From Branchiostoma floridae (lineage: Eukaryota > Chordata > Leptocardii > Amphioxiformes > Branchiostomatidae): a DNA stretch of 64,000 nucleotides. Positions 35,359 to 47,830 of the stretch are shown here, in pieces (the first letter of the stretch is position 1; each line of letters begins with the position of its first letter). Location of the stretch: NCBI RefSeq assembly GCF_000003815.2, contig NC_049985.1, positions 12,983,567 to 13,047,566 of the forward strand, in the 5' to 3' direction. The position numbers were made by a program, and so were the translations under genes. Under the pieces are notes generated by a model. That model was not told where the DNA came from, ran no database searches, and saw only the letters and a program-made list of their open reading frames with translations.

Positions 35359-35367
35359 TAGCAGGTG
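35359..35367 (+). repeat. Left target-site duplication
   Basis: TAGCAGGTG, identical to 47822-47830 in direct orientation. It abuts the first base of the left inverted repeat. Confidence 0.88.
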
Positions 35368-35399
35368 CAGGGGGAATTTGCATATATCCCATGATGCAC
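35368..35399 (+). repeat. Left terminal inverted repeat
   Basis: 32 bases starting CAGGGGGAATTTGCATATAT and ending CCCATGATGCAC. It contains the octamer ATTTGCAT. A TATA box and the HIRAN gene start codon follow within 50 bases, so the terminus may double as promoter-proximal DNA. Confidence 0.92.
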
Positions 35400-35410
35400 C
35401 GCGGTCTCAA

Positions 35411-35449
35411 CTATATATACGCTCGAGCCGTGACGTCATCATTTGAAAA
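35411..35449 (+). promoter_or_regulatory. Promoter of the HIRAN-like gene
   Basis: ACTATATATAC (about 35410-35420) is a TATA box, and a perfect CRE palindrome TGACGTCA lies at 35431-35438, ahead of the ATG at 35450. The spacing implies a very short 5' leader, with transcription starting 10-60 bases inside the transposon's left end. Confidence 0.55.
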
Positions 35450-38238
35450 ATGGCGGGTTCCGGTGATGGTAGCATCCCGGGAGCTCCCGTAAACACAGTG
35501 TTTACGGTTGAACCAAAGCTGTTGCAGGACGCTCCAGAAGTTTTACTTTGCTGTGTAAACACTCACCAGTTCCCAATCCATTTCTCGGGGGTTTCGTGCA
35601 TCGAAGTAGTTACACGGCGCTGTCACATAGCAGTACCGGGCGACCCGCCGTCAGTGCGCCGGCTGTGCTTGATGCCTGATCGGAACCTGGATAGCCTGTT
35701 CGCCGGGGTGACTTCCCCAGTGAAACTACGGATCAAGTCGAGTTCTACCATTCATGTAAGGTTTACTTTATTTCGTAGATCTTTTAGGGACCTTCAGTAT
35801 TTTTGATGGTTCGAAACAGGAATAATTGTACAGCAACAGAAAGGCTACGAATTATAGGGGGCATGTAACGTAACGGTAACGTACAAATTTTATCGACTTT
35901 GTCATGTTTTCCAGTGGCACTATATTCCTTTTTAACTCTGATTCAAATCGAGTTCTATTATAGTTTTATGTACTAGTATTTGATAGTTATTTCTTCATTT
36001 TACATCACCACCGGCGATTGTTTTGTTGTCGAGTATTTTCACAGAAAAAAGGTACAAAGTGATGTGGGACACATGTAATGTATTTTCAGCGTTGAGTCAG
36101 TAACGTTAACAGCTAACTTAATCGTTAATGCTTTTCCTTTTGCTTCAAAATATTACTGGGTATTTGAATAGGATTGAAAAACGTGTATCATGTGAAAGGT
36201 AATTTTTCCCAGCCACTTTATTTGTAAAAATTATTTGCTGTCAATGGTTTTAGTTTTACATCATTTCAGTGTTTGGGTATTGGAAGGGGATAGTTTTTTT
36301 TTACTGAAGACTCGCTAGCAATATTCAATTATCTTTTAAAAATACAAATACTAGAGTTTCACGACCCCATACCTTTGTCAAACAAATCTATCTTTACTAA
36401 TAGTAGAAATCATGTCTGTCTGAGAATTGAGGCATTTACAAAAACTTGTTTCTCACTACAACCATTGTGGAATGGAACATGTTGTGAAGTATGTACTACA
36501 TGTATAGGGTAGAAGCCCCCTTGTTAGGTAGCTTTAAATAATAATGCTTGGAACTTGGAGTTAAATAGAAATGGCTTTCTTTCAACACAATTGGTTAGCA
36601 TAAAGTGTTGTGTTATAGTGACATATTGGTTGATTGCTGAATAAAAAGTTCTAAACCGAACTATGCGGCTCCAGCTGTGTCTCAGAGTCTGAAGGATGTT
36701 TGCAGTGTAACTGTAAGACTGTTGGCTTGAGGACCGGTAGTTCCCCCAGACAATGTTATTGCCGTAAGTTACTTAGTTTGCACGATAAAGGGATTCAGTG
36801 TGCATGGTTTTGCCCCAAGATTTGAGACCTTTGACCCATACTCGAAGGCCTAACATGTTAGCACCATGTGTGTGTTTCAACATATAGTTAGTGTGGTGTG
36901 ACTGTGACAATCTTTAGAAATATTTACTAGTAGTTACTTTGCTACAATCTTTTTACTAGTTTTGGGATATTCTCTCTGTACGTTGTCCTTAATAACTGAT
37001 ATACGAATGAATGCTGTATACTCTCAACATTCAAAGGTCATAACTTAAAGAATGTGCATTACTTGAATTAGATTGTAGAAATCATCAAGTGGTAGTGGAA
37101 AGCCATTTGACTTGAAAAAGGTGTGTCACGGATTTGGATAGCTACAGATTTTAGACGATGTGACGACAAGATCATGCGGTTTGCGATGCTGCTGTTTTCA
37201 TTTCTTCTGCTGTTTGCGTTACAAAATATGTCAAGACATGTATCAATTAGCCATGCCCTCAGAAGTAGGACCTGGCTCTGCCCCCAGACAAGTGATGACG
37301 AAAAATCATGTTTTGGAATGGGTCACGTCTTGGAATGCAGCTGGCATTCAACTTCGTGTTAGTTCAAATCATGTTTTGGAATGGACGGAGTTTTGGAATG
37401 CAACAGGGTTAACTAATGCAGTTACAGAACAATCATCTCCAAGCAGATTCTGCTTTTCTTACAGTTCGAATGCTCTAAAGATGCTGATAGGCAGCAGGCC
37501 AGAGGTACCCTTCTTTGGGACACAGAGATACTGCCAACAGACAGTGCAGCCTTCATACTTCCAGCAGTGACGACAGATATCCCGGCTGACTTACCGTACG
37601 AGACAGACATTCAGCCTGTAGACCCCAATCTACCATACCCTGACCATTGCAACTGTCAGATGTCTGAATCTGTACAGTCACCTCCAATACTTTGCGACAT
37701 GCAAACAGAGTCACAACTAGACCCTCTTGTATGTAGCTTGGAGGACTTGCATTTTTCTTCAGATGGGGGGGAGTCGGATGACCAAGATCTAGATGCAGAG
37801 TTGGAAGAAGACGAAGACACAGATAACCATGCTGCAAATCGTATGAGTGGGCAGATTTTTTCTGTTGTTGGCTCTACGTGGCATACTAGTTGTCAGGCTG
37901 TGCTAGATAAGTGTGAAAAACTGAGAAGGGAGGGAGAAGATGTCAAAGTCCAGGTAGCCTTTGAGCCCACCAATATCAAGGATAGGAATGCCATCGTGTT
38001 TGAAATGTTCATAGAAAACACTTGGCAGATAGTGGGTTATTGCCCAGGCCCCAAAGTCCCCAAACTGACAAGAGCAATGAGAAATGGTTTCATCACTGAG
38101 ATTGCGATGCACAAGTTGACACATTCCTTCTGCTTCCCTGCAAAGAAATTCATGTACAAAGTTCAGGTGAAGATTGTGAAGAGAGGGATTTGGGAAGGCG
38201 ATGCAAAAGACTACAGGTTCAATTCGGTCATTGTATAA
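35450..38238 (+). CDS. HIRAN-like domain protein encoded by the transposon
   Basis: Two exons, 35450-35755 and 37465-38238, join in phase 0 (CAT/GTAAGG donor; TTTTCTTACAG acceptor) to give 359 residues. The ATG at 35450 is the first after a TATA box. Residues 1-102 form a cysteine- and valine-rich N-terminal region I do not recognise. Residues about 202-224 are very acidic (Asp/Glu run). Residues about 230-346 resemble a HIRAN domain, with VVGST, then FEPTNIKDRNAIVFE, then WQIVGYCPGPKVPKL, matching the family pattern EPxNxxDxNAI...VGY. In HLTF and related proteins the HIRAN domain binds free 3' ends of DNA. No helicase or nuclease motif is fused to it here. It converges with the SANT-domain gene inside the same transposon, so a role in handling transposon ends is plausible but inferred. 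Confidence 0.82.
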
Positions 38239-38429
38239 AAAGTATAACGAGGCAACAACCCATCAACTCGATTTGATCTGTAGTTTTATTGGGAATTTTG
38301 TTACTCGCTTGTGCCTTCACTCTTAACTTTCTGCCCTGACTCACTATATTATTAGTGGAGGGCGATACCACATTGCGACTGCAAAAAAAAGTGGTCGCTG
38401 GTTGGATTAGGCAGTTGGTTGCTGGGAGA

Positions 38430-39010
38430 AAGGCAAAAACTGATATCTTATAAGGTCAGAACCCGTATAACACTTAGGACTATGTCTATACATGTTCTCC
38501 TCTTTCCTGACTTGCAACAAAATAACATCTTTTATGAGTATCATTGAGTAATAAAACTTAAGGTTCTGAAGAAAACAAAATCTGAAGAGCATGCCTCATA
38601 AGTTCAATAACTAGTTTGACAGTTACAATAACTAGTTACAATAACTAGTATAACACTTGCAACAATGTATATACCTGAGTTCTCTTCTTTCTTGACTTGC
38701 AACAAAATAGCATCTTTTAAGTATACATTCAGCAATAAAACTAAAGGTTCTGAAGAAAACAATATCCGCAGTGCTTGCCTCATATATACAATAACTAGTT
38801 TGACAGAAGGATACTTCAAAGCATAACTAGGCAAAAACCTGTATAACACTTGCGACAATGTCTATATATACCTGTGGTCTCAAGATCAAAAACTGATTGT
38901 CATATAAGGTCAATACCTGTATAACACTTGCAACAATGTGTATACCCGAGTTCTCTTCTTTCCTCACTTACAACAAAATAGCATCTTTTACAAGTATACA
39001 TATACAGAAT
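38430..39010. repeat. Degenerate tandem duplications between the two convergent transposon genes
   Basis: CTTGCAACAAAATA(A/G)CATCTT recurs near 38513 and 38696, and as CTTACAACAAAATAGCATCT near 38967. It is accompanied by recurring TATAACACTTGCAACAATG, ATTCAGCAATAAAACT-like and CAATAACTAGT words. The period varies (about 180 and 270 bp). The block occupies the shared 3' region, and its AATAAA words could supply polyadenylation signals for the + gene. Confidence 0.7.
38550..38555 (+). terminator. Poly(A) signal, likely for the HIRAN-like gene
   Basis: AATAAA lies about 310 bases after the TAA stop. A second copy occurs in the next repeat unit near 38733. Confidence 0.45.
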
Positions 39011-39287
39011 AAAAAGTAAACATACATAAAATAAAAGACTTAGATATATACAACAGTGGTGACAGGTGGAAACAAGTGGCTACAGGCACTTTCTTCTGTA
39101 AAAAAACAAACAATGCTTGGTACCATGACTAAAAAGTACATTTATATCAAAATCTCACTCATCAAAAAATCGGGCAAGTGGGGTAGGACATGAGCTTGCC
39201 CAATCAGCACTTTCACTTGGCTAGGACAATAAAACTTTTGGACTTGTCTAACCCTGGATGTGGATATAACAGTTTAAAAGTAATCTT

Positions 39288-42200
39288 CTAAACAGGTGGC
39301 AAGCTATTTGGGACCTCAGGCAGTGGCACTTCTGGTCTGTGCAGTATCTGCCTGATGGTCCCCCTGTTCCTGACCGGCAGGACACCCCTTGCAGTTGTGA
39401 AAATCGAAGCGTCTTCCCTTCTACAAGTGCGCAGTCGGTGGAGGCGCAGACGACCATCCTCAGGGTCATCATTGAAGGATGGGTAAGTGTCTTCTGCTTC
39501 TCTGAACCTCTCACTGATTGTCCAGTAATAGAAAGGCAGGTCCGGGTCAATTCTCTTTGAGAATTCCCTGTGAAAGACAAATAAATAATTACAAACCTGT
39601 TCAAGTGAAATAATACATGCCATGGACACAAGAATTGTGCCCATACTGCCCATAATGACCTGTCCACAACTGATTTGTAATGTACGTCGCAAGTACAATG
39701 TGAGTACATGAAATCTTTCAATAATTTTACAAAAAGACCATACTGTAAATGTTTGAAAAGATACTTAAATACCTGACTTCTGTAGGCCATCGAGCATGCA
39801 ACTCCTTGAGGGTAAAGGTGTTTCCCATGTGTCGGTGAAGTCCAGCAAAGAAACACTCTACATCGTCTGTCGTGCTCGCTCTTGGATGCTCTTCATAGCC
39901 AATTGTCGCACTCTCACTTCTCCGCAGCTCCATTGACTCGATATTTGTTGTGACCGCGATGAGGGTTTCTCGGCTCCACCCAAGTACTCCTCGACCGAAC
40001 CTAAAAAAAGCGACCAGAACAAAGATATTCATTTCACTGGGTCTTTAATCCATCTAGGCATTCTCGAGTTATACTATTTGGTAAAGCCCCTATCTCACTG
40101 GATTTGCAAGTTAAAGAGAGCGGTTACTGCATTTTTTATATCTAATCATATTCATTGTGTAGGGTTTTCTTGCCTGTTGATGTCAAGAGTTGAGAAGTCT
40201 GGGGGGTAACGGCGCCATGGGGGGGAACGGTGATATGGCATCAGCTCATCAAGGATCATGTCCATCATGGCTGTGTTCTTCTCCTTCCTCTCTTCCTCTG
40301 AAAGCCCTCGGCCATCAGCTGCTTCATGCCATCCAGCAACGACTTCGATATAGCATGCTTCCCGGTGATACCCTCTGTGTCGGAGAAACCTGACCATGTT
40401 GTAGGACAGCAAGATCTCTGCATCGGTGACAGACTGCTTTCGGAAACCAAACAGGGCTGCCTCTGTTAGCCCTGGCTTGGGCTCACCATCTTGCGGATGG
40501 AGCGCTTCTTCGAGAGCATGGTGGTCAAACCACCGGGGAGGCTCTTTTCTGAGGTGACCAGCAATTCTCTTGAGGAGATGGCAATGATCTTCTCTTCTGT
40601 GAAGGTAGTTGAGGCCGTCTTTCTCTGGGACATACATGTGGTGTGTGAAATCAACCCCCTCAGTTCGAAGTTCCTCTATTCTGAGACGGTATCTGTATGT
40701 GGCCATTATTGATCGCAGCATGTCAGCCATGCACTCAGGCGAGTTGGCACGGAAGGTTGAGGGGCCACAATCTGGGGGCACGAGTTGTCCACGCAGTCTT
40801 ACTACAGCATCCTCCTCTCTCATCTGCTCCACTGTTGTGAGTTTGTGGTATTCTTCAATCACTTCTGGTGGGATAGCCTTCTCCCTCATCTCTGTCAATG
40901 GCATGCCATTGTCATCCTCTGCACAGTGAAACCACAATCATCAATTAGTACAAACTGATGGGGAGTTCAGAGTCTATTGTGACATAAGCTGAACACATTT
41001 GGTTCGACAAGGGCAGAATTTGTGAGAAGATACAAGATGGCTTCACCATATTCCCCCTGCAGAATATCCCTGAAATCAGGTGAATTTGTTGCATTGTAAG
41101 TGTACTTGGGCCAAAGATATATCACACGGATAAAACATACTAATGTCAGTGGTACTGCACAGTCTGATATAATAGAGAGGCCAAACATTAAAGTCAAGTC
41201 AGCAGAGAAAGAAACTAACCTCCAACTTTCCGGAGTGACTTCAGCACAGTGTCAGAAGCCATCCTCCTGACACTGTCTTTCACCCCACGAATGATTTCAT
41301 AGAGATGAATAGGGCGCTTGTTCCCAAGCGTCCTTAGGGAGTTGAACTCTCCATCCGTAACATCACCTGACAACAAATCACAAAGCACCACATCACTGAT
41401 AGATTTGCAAAATGAAAAAGCTCTAAATGGAAAATTAGCTTTGAGTACCTAAAAAAGCCCCCAGCGCACAGGCTCTAGGGCCAACCCACTAGCATTGCAC
41501 CAGAATATACCAATGGTCAACACCTCAGCAAAGACTACAGTCTACAAATGGACTTTATCATGAAGTTTCGTTGAAATGTCTCAATAAAAAAGACAAATTT
41601 TCCTATAATGGATTTTGTTCAGCTTTGCATCATTCAACAGAAGCACTGTCATATTACAAAAAACAGACAAGAGTAACACTCTACTTTTACTTTTGTGCTT
41701 TAACTTCAACTTTTGTCTTTACTATGTTTATAGTGGAGTTAAGCTTCACATGTAAAGGATAGACTCTTACCAACAGGTATCAGTCCCAGCTTCTTGGCCT
41801 CCTCATGGCACTTGTCCAGGAACTGCTGGAGGAACTGATCCCGGATACTGTGATATGGAATGAGCAGGATTGGCACAGCATAGGGCTTCTGATTTCGTCT
41901 TTCGTCAGACACCAAAACGACCAATGCATGATCAGCAGCCACTCTCTTCTTCTTGAAGAGATTGTGCAAGTAGGTTTTGTTGTCTTCTCTCAGTTCCACC
42001 AGACATTGGGCCACACGGCCAGGTTGAGGGGAAGCAGTTCCAAGAGCTGCCAGCAGCCTTTCATACCTACATAATATAGAAAGCATGTGCATGAAGGTAA
42101 AGGTAAAGCAGTCATCCTCAACTGATGTGAAGCATAAATTGTGCTTTTTCAAGTAGCTCAGGTACATGTAGTTGTGCAATGCGGCTTTGCTAACTACTTG

Positions 42201-45200
42201 ATTTATATAACTATGCAGACAGAAAATTGAAGTCAATATTTCTAAAAGTCACCTTTCATAGAAGGCTTTGGCCTGCTCCAGAAGGGTATTGTACTCTACC
42301 CTGTCCCATGCCAGGTTTTTCAGCACATCTGTAGATGAGTTAGCCTGCTCGAATTTCTCCTTATACCTCTTGTTTGCTGCCTCAAGGCCACCTTTCAGCA
42401 GATCAATGTCTTCTCCAAGATCCTGAAGGAGACTGAGGAGACAGGCCTCTAGATTGCGTGGCACGCAGGACTTCCCAGCTTCCCTGACAAGGACCATGCG
42501 TCTGTCGTTGTCAGCCCTTAGCTTCTCCAGGCTTCCATCCCCAAGATCAACGTCTCCAGCCCATTTGCCCTTTGTAGATGTCTGCAGGGCAACCTTCAAA
42601 TCACAAGCATCAGCCTTAAACCAGACACGTGCTCCTGGCTTCATCTTGGCAAAGGATTCCAGTGCAGCGATCTGTATATAACAGAACAAACTTTACTGTA
42701 TACTAATCTGATATGCATAAAATAGTAAAAGTTTTCCCAACGTCCATGTCTATTCTTTAGTAGTGTGTCTACCAAATGAAGCTCAATAATTTCCATTCAT
42801 AGACATCACAAGGAGCAGAACTGCTGATACTAGTAGTATTATTGCCAAGAAGAGAATGCCTCTGGAACAATTTTTCTCTTTTTTTTGAAGGTTTGCAAAC
42901 TCACATGGATACTGGAGTTGCCATCAAACTTCTCATTCTGTGCCAGTCTGTACATGGTGTCCAGGGAGGGGGCGGCGACATTAATATGTGCCTGTCAGAG
43001 AAGGAAGAGAATCATATGTCAAATAAGACATGACAAGTAAAAAAAAAATAGACAAAAATTACACAGTAACAGAACAAGATGTACTTTCTTCAAATGCACA
43101 GTATTTAAGTGCCCCTAATTCTTTCACAATTCATGTTATCATACTACTCAAGGTAAATATCACTCTGAGCCAGCCTCCTTAGTACTGTACTAACTTAGGG
43201 AATCTACTGGAATAACTAAGTATGTCAAATACATACAAAATGGAATTGAAAAGGTATCGCTATTATGGCAAATATTCAGATACTACATTAAGTATATGGA
43301 CTGGTTATCATCACAATTGAAAATTTGTGAAACATAAAAGCCATCTTTATACATGTAGTAACCTTCAATGGGTCCAAGTCAGTGCTTTCCAGGCCACTCC
43401 ACCCTGGCCCCCGAAACAGCCTCAAGAACCTGGTTGGAAACTCAGCACACATGCTCTCCAACCAGCTGGCATAATCTGGAGAAATGCTGACCTACAGAAC
43501 ATACATGAGTACCATTGTATAAATTAATACCATAACAAGTTGGACATAACACTGTCTCTTGCTATGAAGTCTGCAATCTTCATCATATCTGATATCACCA
43601 TAGATAATTTGTTCACACCCTCCTACCACAATGAACAAAGTTCCTGATCACACTTCTAATTGCCCAACACTACATGGCTTGGGGCCTGGCTAATTGCACA
43701 GGAAGATGGTAGCAAAAATGAATTGGGGTTTTTGGAAAACCCTGTCCAGTCCAGACAGGGAAATGGGGCGGAAAACCCTGTCCAGTCTGAAAAGAGGGTC
43801 TGCATAGGGGTTCCTGGCAATGCTTAAAAGTATTACTTCAGACAGCACTTACACAGCATAATGAGTGACCCAAAGGTGCAATATGCATGCACACAAAGTC
43901 AGTTCTGTCAAATGCAAAGTACCCAATTAACACTTATCTGGTAGGACATGAGGGGAGAGAATTGTCAATCAAACAATGGATAGTGAGTGTCCGTCAATTT
44001 CGGGTTGTTAAATAATGGCAATACATTACAAAGACAGGCTTTGAAAGGTTTTCTTTAAATGATAAGTGCGCAGCACTCATTTTGAGAGCTGGTCTGTTTA
44101 AATCCTGGTTTAATAGAATGACTGCGAAAGGTTTCAATATCAACACGACTTTAGTACACAATGTTATAACATTACAATATATTTTACAATGCACTACAAT
44201 AAAGCCGAGATGGCATTTTTCAAACGATAGTACAAGTTGTGAGCTATATAGAACTATGTATCCTTTTAAAAATAATGTGTTTTATTTGCAAAATTATGCC
44301 GTAAGGCTAATAGCATGTTCAGTCTCAAAGACTTAAAGAGTAGACGTTTTTTATATGATGAGAAGTAACAATGATGGATGATTTTTGTTAAGTAATAATT
44401 TTTTTATGACATTGTGCCACACTTCAAGTTGATGTTATTTCTGTGCTTAGCCGTATTAAAGATAAAAAAAAATGTTGTTGTATACTAGTACTTAGTAGCT
44501 TACACCGTATACCCCCATGCAGACCCTCTTTTCAGACAGCTTACAATGTATACCCCCATGCAGACCCTCTTTTCAGACTGGACAGGGTTTTCCGCACTCC
44601 GGACTGGACAAGTTTTTCCGAAAACCCAAATGAATTGAGGTAATTAGTTACAAAATTAGACAAAACTAGCCAAAACAACAAACAAAAAACTAAGAAGGCA
44701 TTCTTTACTGGAAATGCCATCATTTTAAATTAGTACATCAGATAAGTATCATTATATACTGATGCTAACCTGATGTACATTGGTGGCACTGAAGAACTCC
44801 ATCTGGTATTGTAGTAATCCAAATGGCATCCTGTCAATTTGGAGCAGAGGGGTGGAGGTGCCAGGCCTGTTGGTGCTCAAGATGTGGGCAAACTTGTACA
44901 GGATGTTGGGCTTGTTGTGTTCTTGTAGGGTGGACATGGCATTGATGGACTTTGAAAAGAAGTCGGTTGGGTATGTGGAAATATTCTTTGCTGTAGCTAC
45001 AACTGAGAACAGTTTATCACCAAAGGATAGAACTGAAGATGATTGAACGATTTGAGGAAGCAGCATAAGCATGAAAGAATCAAATTCTGATTGGGTCAGG
45101 GCCTTGCAAGAAGACAGTACTGTTGTGACATCATCCTGGCAGCTATGTTCAGTTTGTGTTTGCTGGTCCACAGTCAACTTCTTTGTCTGGCATCCCCTGC

Positions 45201-46307
45201 TGACTGTTTCTTTGGTTTTCTTTGCACGGCTGATTGAATTCGTCTCAAGACCAAAAGACTTCACAGCAGCTTCAAGGGATTCGTCGAATTTCGTCCTCCA
45301 CTTCCTGCACCTGTTCCTCACTGTGTTTGCTGTGAATAGAAAGAGAAACAGTGTGTCACTGAAGAGAAACCTTTGCTATTGACAAAGTATGACTTCATAT
45401 CCCAACACCTTGAGGGACTACACTCACACTAAATGTGAGAAATAATAGAACTTCTTTTGATTTCTATCAGTTCTAAACTTGTTGCAATAATCTATCAAGG
45501 TAAAGACAGCAAGAGCCATTGTTTTTCACTGACCTGAAAGAAGTTCACTGCTCCTGGTTGCCGTCTTGATTGATGTTGCAGCCTCTGTCCAAAAGGGACT
45601 GTTAGCGTGCCTCATTGGCCAGGATGCTGTGTCAGTGACATTTTCATCCTGATCAAGGTGGCTTAGATCCAAAAACTGGATCAATGCCTTGTCCTCCTTA
45701 TCAGTCCACTGATGGTGTTTCACAGGCCGAGGGGACTTGGCCAGTTGAATCTTTGGGGTGAGCATGTGCCCCAAAGATCGTGTTATCTGTTGCAAATACA
45801 GGATACATGTAATTTGTAGCAAGGAGAAACTATAGCAAAGTTTGCTATAGTTTAACTGGTACTGAGTGTCATCATCAGTCTTGGCTCACCAATCTTACTC
45901 GACTTCTGAATAGTTTCTGCAAGGAGTCATGATGTAATAAACATACTATGAAATTACATCACATCAGTGCACTATGAAATAACATCACATTAGTGAAATA
46001 ATTGTATTAATGGTATAATTGACAACAGTAAAACTGTCCTTAGCCTGTAAGGTCATCAGTGAAACCTAACAATTTGTAAATTTGCTACATCCTGTTGGAC
46101 CATACCACAACAGCCAATGATGATCTTGATCGAGGAAACATTTTCTGTCTTATGGCAATTAATCACCTTAGGACTTAGGAAAGAGAGAGGTCGGCGAGCT
46201 CCTCCATCTTTCTTTCCATGTTTGTGCTGCCTCCTCTTCCCAGACGGGGTGTGACCACTCCCGCCAACATGTGGCCTCTTTTGGGGCGTTGATGGAGTTG
46301 ACATCAT
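39288..46307 (-). CDS. SANT/Myb-domain protein, putative transposase of the 12.45-kb element
   Basis: Coding exons in order: 46307-46167, 45786-45534, 45329-44770, 43491-43363, 42991-42905, 42671-42253, 42066-41771, 41366-41220, 40918-40174, 40000-39773, 39567-39288. Every junction joins in phase, giving 1094 residues ending in TAG. Ten of ten acceptors are AG; nine donors are GT and one is GC (AG/GCAAGA at 40173). The ATG follows a strong acceptor (TTTCCCTCAG, exon start 46309), so a non-coding exon lies upstream. Residues 1-67 are basic and low-complexity. Residues about 70-150 form a SANT/trihelix-like DNA-binding domain ([16 protein letters not shown] ... [10 protein letters not shown]). 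The middle (390-630) has helical, coiled-coil-like character. The C-terminal part has compact motifs such as [17 protein letters not shown] (written RREDHCH here), [14 protein letters not shown] (about 964-977) and [13 protein letters not shown] recognise no named transposase family. The acidic TTDDVE cluster could hold catalytic residues, but this is inference. Confidence 0.82.
42102..42193 (+). repeat. Interspersed repeat family C (copy 2)
   Basis: Matches 14146-14220 (AAGCAGTCATCCTCA ... GCAATGCGGCTTTGCTA). It lies in the intron between exons 6 and 7 of the putative transposase gene, so it inserted into the transposon or was carried with it. Confidence 0.5.
43726..44628. mobile_element. 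Nested 0.9-kb MITE in a transposase intron
   Basis: Inverted arms of about 90 bases lie at 43726-43815 and about 44540-44628. The outer ends read GGGTTTT(T/C)GGAAAA, and the inner parts share CCTGTCCAGTCTGAAAAGAG and GGGTCTGCAT. It is flanked by AATGAATTG on both sides (43717-43725 and 44629-44637), an 8- to 10-bp duplication depending on how the A-run is read. The right arm contains an extra local duplication of the segment with ACCCCCATGCAGACCCTC. The 0.7-kb core has no convincing coding content. It sits wholly inside intron 3 of the putative transposase gene, so it does not break the frame. Confidence 0.85.
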
Positions 46308-47788
46308 GACTGAGGGAAACAATATTGGACAGTCTAAGATGATTTTTACCCTTTTATAGAATATATTTCCTTGAGGTATTTCAATGAAGTTATTGATGAC
46401 ACTTTGCTCACTTTGGGAGAATGAGACACAGTTATTGAACATGTCAATAAAGAACCAAAATTAAAGCAAAATGTACCTTTAACATTACAATTTAGGATAA
46501 TTTTCTATCTATGGATGTCCCATAAGATATAAACTGGTCTGGTATGCAATTTTTTTCTGTTTCATTGGCAAGGATTAAAAACTCTCCAAAATAAACTATG
46601 ATATTCATAAACATCACTGCTAACCTGGGGAATCAACAATAATCCATAAATTACAAATCTTACACACCACTGCACCACTTGATAACTTACAAATTCTGAC
46701 AGACTCTCAAATTATGAAACTGAAAGACTAAAACTACTTTTTGACAAGATTTATTGGTCCAAATATCAACGACAGTACGTATATGACAGTGAAGGTGAAA
46801 ATGTAGATCAGACTCCTTCGTATAACTCACAAGCAAGCCTAACCAGTCAATAATGACAAGATAGGTAAACAAGTTCTACGGCTATGTGATCCCGATCGAC
46901 CGTCTGTTTAGCGAATATTAAGCCCACAAACGCCCACCCTTGAAAAGTCTGTGCTACATAAATCTAGTTCTTTTGCAAGTACAGTAATACGTTCAGGTTG
47001 GGCTCTCATGAGTTTCAAGTGAATTCATCGACCCGAAGTACGAAAATCCATCTTGGTAACTTCCGCCTTTGCGACATATACGATACCCACTCACCTCCGC
47101 ATTTTAAGCGAGTTTCCAGTCCAACCAACAACATTTTCCGTTTGAATAGGTTTTCCCTGAATGTCTGCTAAGTCCCTATACTGTAACAATCTTTCCAAAC
47201 TTTCTAAATTGCTTTAGGAAGGTAAAACTACGGCGCGTTCGTGTTTGTTTACGTGTCCGCCATCTTTTCTTTACCGGCTTATTTGCATATGTTAATGAGT
47301 TTAAAGGGCCTCCGCGCGACTGTCAGGCGTATGTAAACACGACCAACCATGCGATCCTGCGCGGCTGTTTTCGTGATCTTCCTATGAGTGCTTTTTGGTG
47401 CTTTTCGTTTTTTTAGACACACAATCAATCTACCATACGTAAACTACACTTTTTTTTAAAAAGCACCACTATTTGATTAACCAATGCGGAAGATTTGATA
47501 GCACTATATGCAAATCTCCAACATGCGACAACGGGATTTACGCATGAGAAGTCTATCGGCATTTACCTCAAAATTAAACATGTTCCTCGGGTATCACACA
47601 CATCAACACTTTTCATGGAAAACTACAATTCCCGAACTCTAAAAAATGACGAAAATTACCCACCTAATTCTCTTGGCTGCTGTCCAACATGGCCAACATC
47701 TTGAAGATGCCCATGCCCTACATCTTGGGCTTTGCAGTTCCGGGTTTGCCGGCGTTCGCGCGGAAAATCGAACGCGATCGAAAGTAAA
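46308..47788 (-). promoter_or_regulatory. 5' leader and promoter region of the putative transposase gene
   Basis: Read on the minus strand, a YY1-like AAGATGGCGG lies at about 47257-47266, and a strong donor GAG/GTGAGT ends a likely non-coding exon at 47095. The strong acceptor at 46309/46310 then opens the first coding exon two bases before the ATG. ACTACAATTCCC at 47622-47633 resembles a ZNF143/THAP11 site. ATTTGCATAT, part of the terminal repeat, recurs at 47281-47290 and, inverted, at about 47506-47515. No open frame here looks coding. Confidence 0.55.
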
Positions 47789-47821
47789 GTGCATCATGGG
47801 ATATATGCAAATCCCCCCTTG
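47789..47821 (-). repeat. Right terminal inverted repeat
   Basis: 33 bases. Read inward from the right end it begins CAAGGGGGGATTTGCATATA and ends CCCATGATGCAC, matching the left terminus with one extra base. Confidence 0.92.
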
Positions 47822-47830
47822 TAGCAGGTG
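47822..47830 (+). repeat. Right target-site duplication
   Basis: TAGCAGGTG, direct copy of 35359-35367. Confidence 0.88.

Follow-up and report, generated by a model that had tools for sequence, protein, structure and literature searches.

The locus and its element

The window analysed here is a 64,000-bp stretch of the 513.4-Mb genome of the lancelet Branchiostoma floridae (C7:12983567-13047566; C-numbers denote contigs of that assembly). It contains a 12,454-bp element (35368-47821), whose boundaries are set by a flanking duplication, by searches with its ends and by related copies, and which carries two convergent genes: a transposase gene on the minus strand (46307-39288), encoding a protein of 1094 amino acids (aa), and a gene on the plus strand, encoding a 359-aa protein of HIRAN type. 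We consider this element, with a probability of about 0.82, to be an autonomous class II (cut-and-paste) DNA transposon with a DDE/DxxH transposase and a HIRAN-type partner.

Alignment of the two ends defines a left terminal inverted repeat (TIR) of 32 bp that begins with CAGGGGG (35368-35399, plus strand) and a right TIR of 33 bp that finishes with CCCCCCTTG (47789-47821, minus strand). The left end reads CAGGGGGAATTTGCATATATCCCATGATGCAC and the right one, read inward, CAAGGGGGGATTTGCATATATCCCATGATGCAC; 30 of the 31 aligned bases are identical, with a one-base offset after the terminal CA, and the form is CA...TG. The 9-bp target-site duplication TAGCAGGTG, of which the two empty sites described below have a single copy, lies to the left of the element (35359-35367) and to its right (47822-47830); it occurs nowhere else on the plus strand of the window.

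Other copies, empty sites and age

When the genome is searched with the terminal 142 bp of each end, at least 13 matches per end are obtained, the window included. Among the 12 other left-end matches, eight start at the first base of the element, two start one base later and two further in. Eight copies are two-ended, and seven of them are bordered by a 9-bp duplication, each time a different one: besides TAGCAGGTG in the window, these are GATTCCGCC on C1, ATCGTGGCC at 12.79 Mb on C7, GGACTGACC on C2, GGGCCGTAC at 16.6 Mb on C7, TATTAGGGC on C15 and TCACGTGAC on C168. The count leaves aside four left-end matches (three on C6, one on C226), as well as the unpaired right ends at 9.26 Mb on C2, at 27.14 Mb on C6 and on C302/C5, where the flanks are reverse complements. 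The 16.6-Mb copy, a derivative of 758 bp shortened by internal deletion, has a duplication of its own and represents the expected non-autonomous form. For the C2 and C15 copies the duplication is found at the outermost ends, with an extra internal end and a 100-N gap in between, which we read as two haplotypes scaffolded together. The two ends of the C168 copy are in opposite orientation on the contig, probably because of an assembly fault.

The joined flanks of the window element find two paralogous sites on the same chromosome, each with one TAGCAGGTG and no insert; one is 86% identical and ungapped across the junction, and the other 77% identical with gaps. Both boundaries and the 9-bp duplication are therefore supported independently of the other copies. 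A chance inverted repeat is ruled out by the other genomic copies and by these empty sites.

The copy at 12.79 Mb on C7 differs from the window copy by six substitutions and three insertion sites over 12,454 bp, and the coding sequences of both genes are identical. As its flanks and its duplication differ from those of the window copy, it is an independent insertion, and a segmental duplication giving rise to the two chromosome-7 copies is rejected. With so few substitutions, and both genes intact in another copy, mobility must have been recent. The C9 copy also has open frames without any stop, and shows eight synonymous and two nonsynonymous codon changes. The corresponding numbers of synonymous/nonsynonymous changes are 7/5 for C15, 5/10 for C2 and 2/3 for C168, each of these copies being covered in part, and the C168 copy has two 2-base insertions in an exon. 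Two observations count against this picture: the C9 copy lacks a matching duplication, its left flank consisting of 9 bp followed by Ns and its right flank being different, and a single base is missing from a transposase exon of the C1 copy. The coinciding boundaries in other copies and at the two empty sites support the view that the element is a complete, autonomous and recently mobile DNA transposon.

The original prediction, made from the letters of the window, is confirmed at this level. It had described a complete 12.45-kb DNA transposon with 32/33-bp CA...TG inverted termini and a 9-bp direct duplication, enclosing two convergent, multi-exon, open genes; the same boundaries are found in other two-ended copies and at the two empty sites, the element measures 12,454 bp, and the genes have 11 exons for the transposase and two for its neighbour. 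The copies with different 9-bp duplications, full-length or deleted, that it had proposed to look for also exist (seven of the eight two-ended copies, the 758-bp derivative among them). As for an empty site, which it had proposed to seek in another haplotype, insert-free sites with a single TAGCAGGTG are indeed present, but they are paralogous sites on the same chromosome and not allelic ones.

Two further observations concern the copies. The seven 9-bp targets have a G+C content of 62%, against 40% in the window, seven sites being too few to establish a preference. The C15 copy is either recombinant or misassembled: its left end and its HIRAN-type gene come from a divergent subfamily (about 76% nucleotide identity), its right part shares 97.7-99.6% identity with the window element, and between these parts there is an N gap as well as a second left end.

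The transposase gene

The exon model of the transposase was built by hand from the sequence, and its start codon is tentative. Nine of the ten introns are of the GT-AG type, and the one after exon 9 is GC-AG. All exons being on the minus strand, exon 1 (46167-46307) carries the tentative start codon and exon 2 (45534-45786) appears Myb/SANT-like by eye, with a Pfam Myb match at E 0.31 only. Like exon 1, exons 3 (44770-45329), 4 (43363-43491) and 5 (42905-42991) are matched in the C233 relative. Exon 6 (42253-42671) holds D411, the putative first catalytic Asp; exon 7 (41771-42066) would form strands and a helix before D633; exon 8 (41220-41366) contains a TDGE motif with D633; exon 9 (40174-40918) contains a REDHxH motif (D788xxH791) and is followed by the GC-AG donor; exon 10 (39773-40000) contains a DDVECFF motif with E974; and exon 11 (39288-39567) ends with the stop codon. 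The 11-exon model is supported by the divergent C233 relative, which matches exons 1-6 and 6-11 (7 and 9 partly). When the transposase is compared with four divergent relatives, dN is 0.19-0.58 and dS is 1.3 or saturated, and the protein is under purifying selection.

Considering for each motif only the alignment rows that cover it, window row included, KxDxxD[LI]K with D411 is kept in 4/4 rows, TDGE with D633 in 6/6, and EDHxH with D788xxH791 in 9/9, two of which (C6c and C6d) are nearly identical; DDVExF or DDVEAFI with E974 is kept in four of five rows, the C6b relic being gapped there. The conserved order D, D, DxxH, E is that of the DxxH-bearing DDE transposases (hAT/P/MuDR/Kolobok/Dada group), a group to which the protein would be assigned on residue conservation and not on structure. 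D414 equals D411 in conservation, and could be the catalytic residue in its place.

The putative catalytic motifs D411, D633, DxxH and E974 are separated by 222, 155 and 186 residues. For the C1b relative, exons 6-7 were modelled with AlphaFold (mean pLDDT 71): helices come first, then two strands and one more helix, which is compatible with a helical insert separating the first Asp from later RNase H strands, the first-Asp segment itself being below pLDDT 50; the predicted model of exon 9 has a mean pLDDT of 62. Structural comparisons lend no support to such a core. With the partial exons 6-7 model, Foldseek gives 886 matches at E <= 10 and none at E <= 0.001, the 50 best being mostly helical proteins. 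Searches of the PDB with the transposase protein give no match, and the best matches of the transposase profile are two thymidine kinases (E 0.35-0.39); with the HIRAN region and the Myb-like region, nothing is found there below E 0.35. Neither the PDB nor Foldseek provides a significant match; we infer the RNase H fold, the catalysis and the roles of the residues from the conserved motifs.

Relatives of the transposase gave several side observations. In the C233 relative, identity to the window element is 91-97% for the last transposase exon and the 3' region next to it, and about 56-81% at the level of the protein for the other transposase exons, a contrast that suggests an exchange between subfamilies. 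The left end of this relative is diverged and its right end was not found; for the C1b relative, no 9- or 10-bp duplication with TIRs was found in 29 kb. Scans of viral contigs and a scan of genome contigs gave no relative. On contig C6, many decayed transposase fragments lie within about 2 Mb (about 25.6-27.9 Mb), together with several fragments of Mutator-like elements (MULEs), in what is perhaps a repeat-rich, low-recombination region. Finally, intron 3 of the transposase gene contains a nested 903-bp repeat (43725-44627) with GGGTTTT-type inverted ends and its own 9-bp duplication, AAATGAATT (43716-43724 and 44628-44636). The C7b, C1 and C9 copies share its inner 862 bp (C9 lacking 28 bases), which dates its insertion to before the last spread of the family.

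The HIRAN-type second gene

The second gene, convergent with the transposase gene, consists of exon 1 (35450-35755, plus strand), with 73% aa identity in the C233 relative, and exon 2 (37465-38238, plus strand), whose C-terminal part contains a HIRAN-like stretch. Its relationship to HIRAN is best seen in counterparts from other lineages. Those of C1b (24.9 bits) and C13 (28.9 bits) are above the Pfam HIRAN cut-off of 24.7, and both align with the window protein, with E-values of 5e-15 to 6e-14 for C1b and 0.004 to 0.04 for C13, the two being related to each other at E 2e-6 to 2e-5. The HIRAN gene is located downstream of the transposase gene, and convergent to it, in C1b, C13 and C233, that is, in three of the five divergent lineages examined beyond the near-identical family. 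A genome-wide search with the HIRAN profile gives at least two matches, one of which lies beside the C13 transposase.

Some results go in the opposite direction. The window protein itself is below the cut-off (HIRAN E 0.018 for the domain and 0.11 for the protein), and DUF6691 is slightly ahead of HIRAN (E 0.0083-0.039). The genome-wide HIRAN search reported neither the window gene nor that of C1b, and no HIRAN gene was found next to the C10 and C308 relatives in the DNA retrieved, which may not reach far enough, unless the copies are decayed. From the same below-threshold values it could be argued that the second gene encodes an unrelated accessory protein that merely resembles HIRAN; with two counterparts exceeding the cut-off and aligning with the window protein, we find this improbable. 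The linkage of a HIRAN-type gene and the transposase is a property of the family and not of one copy, and the earlier statement that neither protein carries known motifs was not right.

In HLTF, single-stranded DNA and fork-like junctions are bound by the HIRAN domain, for which other authors report recognition of 3' ends (PMC4666394). In the accessible literature, judged by title, no paper pairing HIRAN with a transposon or transposase was found. Between the two convergent genes, positions 38453-38990 contain short direct repeats of three interleaved families (41-81 bp, two to four copies each), and the C233 relative has many occurrences of similar sequence in its 3' region.

Novelty and affiliation

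The element might already be named in Repbase or Dfam, for example as an unclassified lancelet element. B. floridae is a well-curated species, and at least 40 known autonomous transposable element superfamilies were reported from lancelets in 2014 (PMC4284660). On the other side, no description of such an element was found in the accessible transposon literature, subscription journals and Repbase Reports apart, and we regard a prior naming as rather unlikely, though to be reckoned with.

The nearest lead among known superfamilies, although membership is unproven, is the P superfamily (P element/THAP9), of which the element could be a divergent member without THAP and GTP-binding domains and with 9-bp instead of 8-bp duplications. 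In Pfam-A scans, run to a limit of E 10 with HMMER filters that drop most matches above about 0.1, no family is reported for the full-length transposase, and no transposase family exceeds its cut-off, which is also a point against its DDE assignment. When the cores of five relatives are scanned, PF21787 (TNP-like_RNaseH_N, the N-terminal part of the P-element RNase H) is the only transposase family found, in three of the five (best E 0.049). It is also found in all six core search pieces, in five of which the helical insert was removed or replaced (unscrambled pieces: E 0.0069-0.13), and the match always covers the segment that ends at D633. Alignment of the core with lancelet P transposases by hhalign gives the same register. 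The D(2)H motif, present here as DxxH in 9/9 rows, is a P signature (PMC8230255), and the 32/33-bp TIRs are close to the 31-bp TIRs of P (PMC7776569), so that the likeness extends from the DDE triad and D(2)H motif, with sub-threshold RNase H similarity up to the second Asp, to TIRs of about 31-32 bp.

Nevertheless, every PF21787 score is below the cut-off of 24.6 bits (E up to 0.24), and the P affiliation is weakened by unrelated Pfam families that score as well or better: Hikeshi-like_C reaches E 0.00069 in one of the five relatives, and pPIWI_RE_REase outscores PF21787 in two search pieces (E 0.0011 and 0.03). PF21787 itself scores best (E 0.0019) in a piece with a hand-scrambled first-Asp segment. 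Only the stretch ending at D633 thus carries the PF21787 signal, and similarity of the first-Asp segment was not used as support for D411, this control having failed. With P transposases of the same genome (L058-L060), hhalign gives E 0.49 and 0.33, and the lancelet P profile has no match in the PDB at E <= 0.001. Column shuffles reach the observed P score in 18/300 cases, in a test that excluded the C233 row because of its length and kept only 15 columns of the C13 row. In a second test they do so in 11/400 for the stretch before D633, 234/400 for the first-Asp stretch and 56/300 for the whole core, and in a third in 28/1000, against 64/1000 for a MULE control. A trial of gap-free end alignment ('glocal'), whose scoring is doubted, gave shuffles above the score in 377 and 284 of 400.

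The anatomy also differs. The duplication is 9 bp and not the 8 bp of the P superfamily (PMC7776569), no THAP, GTP-binding domain or RNaseH_C match is obtained in the Pfam scans, and the spacings of 222/155/186 compare with 73/36/192 in the P element, as calculated from residue numbers (PMC8230255), which indicates large inserts in the core and a DxxH spacing of 155 instead of 36. The P element is also much shorter (2.9 kb against 12.45 kb), and the second, HIRAN-type gene is a further difference. Altogether, membership in the P superfamily seems unlikely to us.

A divergent MULE is more improbable still. The 9-bp duplication is typical of maize Mu (PMC2774946) and the C/DxxH motif of the DDE core is shared with MuDR (PMC10045372), but maize Mu has TIRs of about 215 bp (PMC2774946), compared with 32 bp here, and a HIRAN-type gene is an additional difference. 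The MULE transposase domain PF10551 is not reported in the Pfam scans of the element, whereas a positive control gives 27 stretches elsewhere in the genome and none within the element. In the profile comparison with lancelet MULEs, which used three of the six MULE loci, 64/1000 shuffles reach the score. The Mutator-like hint that the original prediction drew from the 9-bp duplication agrees in length, no PF10551 match being reported for the transposase.

CAGGG ends recall hAT elements, whose duplications are 8 bp, and the C/DxxH-type DDE is also common to both. The 9-bp duplication and the lack of any hAT family, the dimerisation domain included, in the Pfam scans nevertheless speak against the hAT hint that had been drawn from the left end. 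KDZ, whose transposase domain is a Pfam family, and Zisupton are rejected because no such match is reported in the Pfam scans, and because Zisupton has 8 bp instead of 9 bp. Merlin, which has an IS1595/IS1016-type transposase, is rejected as well, no transposase of this type being found in the Pfam scans. Dada has a C/DxxH-type DDE, and Dada-U6_DR a 1402-aa transposase with 11 predicted exons (PMC3706591), but it is rejected, as Dada duplicates 6-7 bp in small RNA genes and Dada-U6 is without TIRs, whereas the element has 9 bp at seven different targets. Kolobok, finally, shares the C/DxxH-type DDE and, in some of its lineages, the presence of accessory proteins (PMC9587614), but is rejected because it duplicates TTAA.

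The element is therefore best filed as a candidate new DDE transposon lineage of superfamily-level divergence with a HIRAN-type accessory gene; it would belong to the DxxH-bearing DDE group, probably as a separate superfamily-level lineage. That it represents a new superfamily of eukaryotic DNA transposons, characterized by 9-bp duplications, CA...TG ends, an insert-split DDE/DxxH core and a regular HIRAN partner gene, can be put forward tentatively, at somewhat less than even odds. In the original proposal of an undescribed autonomous superfamily, autonomy, mobility and shared boundaries have stood, and the novelty at superfamily level is plausible but unproven, resting on Pfam and the literature.

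Proposed mechanism

Short inverted ends, a duplication of fixed length, a deletion derivative and a DDE-type transposase together give the anatomy of a cut-and-paste element. Starting from what is directly observed (the termini and their 9-bp duplications, recent copies and paralogous empty sites, open genes, purifying selection, conserved motif residues and the HIRAN linkage), transposition could proceed as follows. The 1094-aa transposase would bind the 32/33-bp ends, probably via its N-terminal Myb/SANT-like segment, and its RNase H-type DDE core (D411, D633 and E974, with DxxH at 788-791) would excise the element. Two inserts would split this core: a helical one of about 120 residues, placed between D411 and the strands that precede D633, and a second one of about 150 residues between D633 and DxxH. 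The transposase would then join the 3' ends of the element to the two target strands at positions 9 bp apart, and repair by the host would leave the 9-bp duplication. The HIRAN-type protein would most likely bind the single-stranded 3' ends or the fork-like junctions of excision and strand transfer, and might assist transposition or steer repair. By analogy with HLTF, we hypothesize that it holds these 3' ends or strand-transfer forks; cleavage of the P element, for comparison, leaves 17-nt 3' extensions (PMC7776569).

Significance

Repbase comprises only 24 superfamilies of eukaryotic DNA transposons (PMC12730594), and a lineage at superfamily-level distance is therefore uncommon. The element would add a branch to the DxxH group, which includes P, hAT and MuDR. 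As at least two intact, nearly identical copies are present at different targets, its transposase is directly testable. The linked HIRAN gene moreover leads to the testable idea that a transposon comes equipped with a factor acting on free 3' ends or forks. If the element does represent a new superfamily of the kind put forward above, its HIRAN protein would hold free 3' ends or fork-like intermediates as a factor encoded by the transposon itself, and would tilt repair in favour of copy gain.

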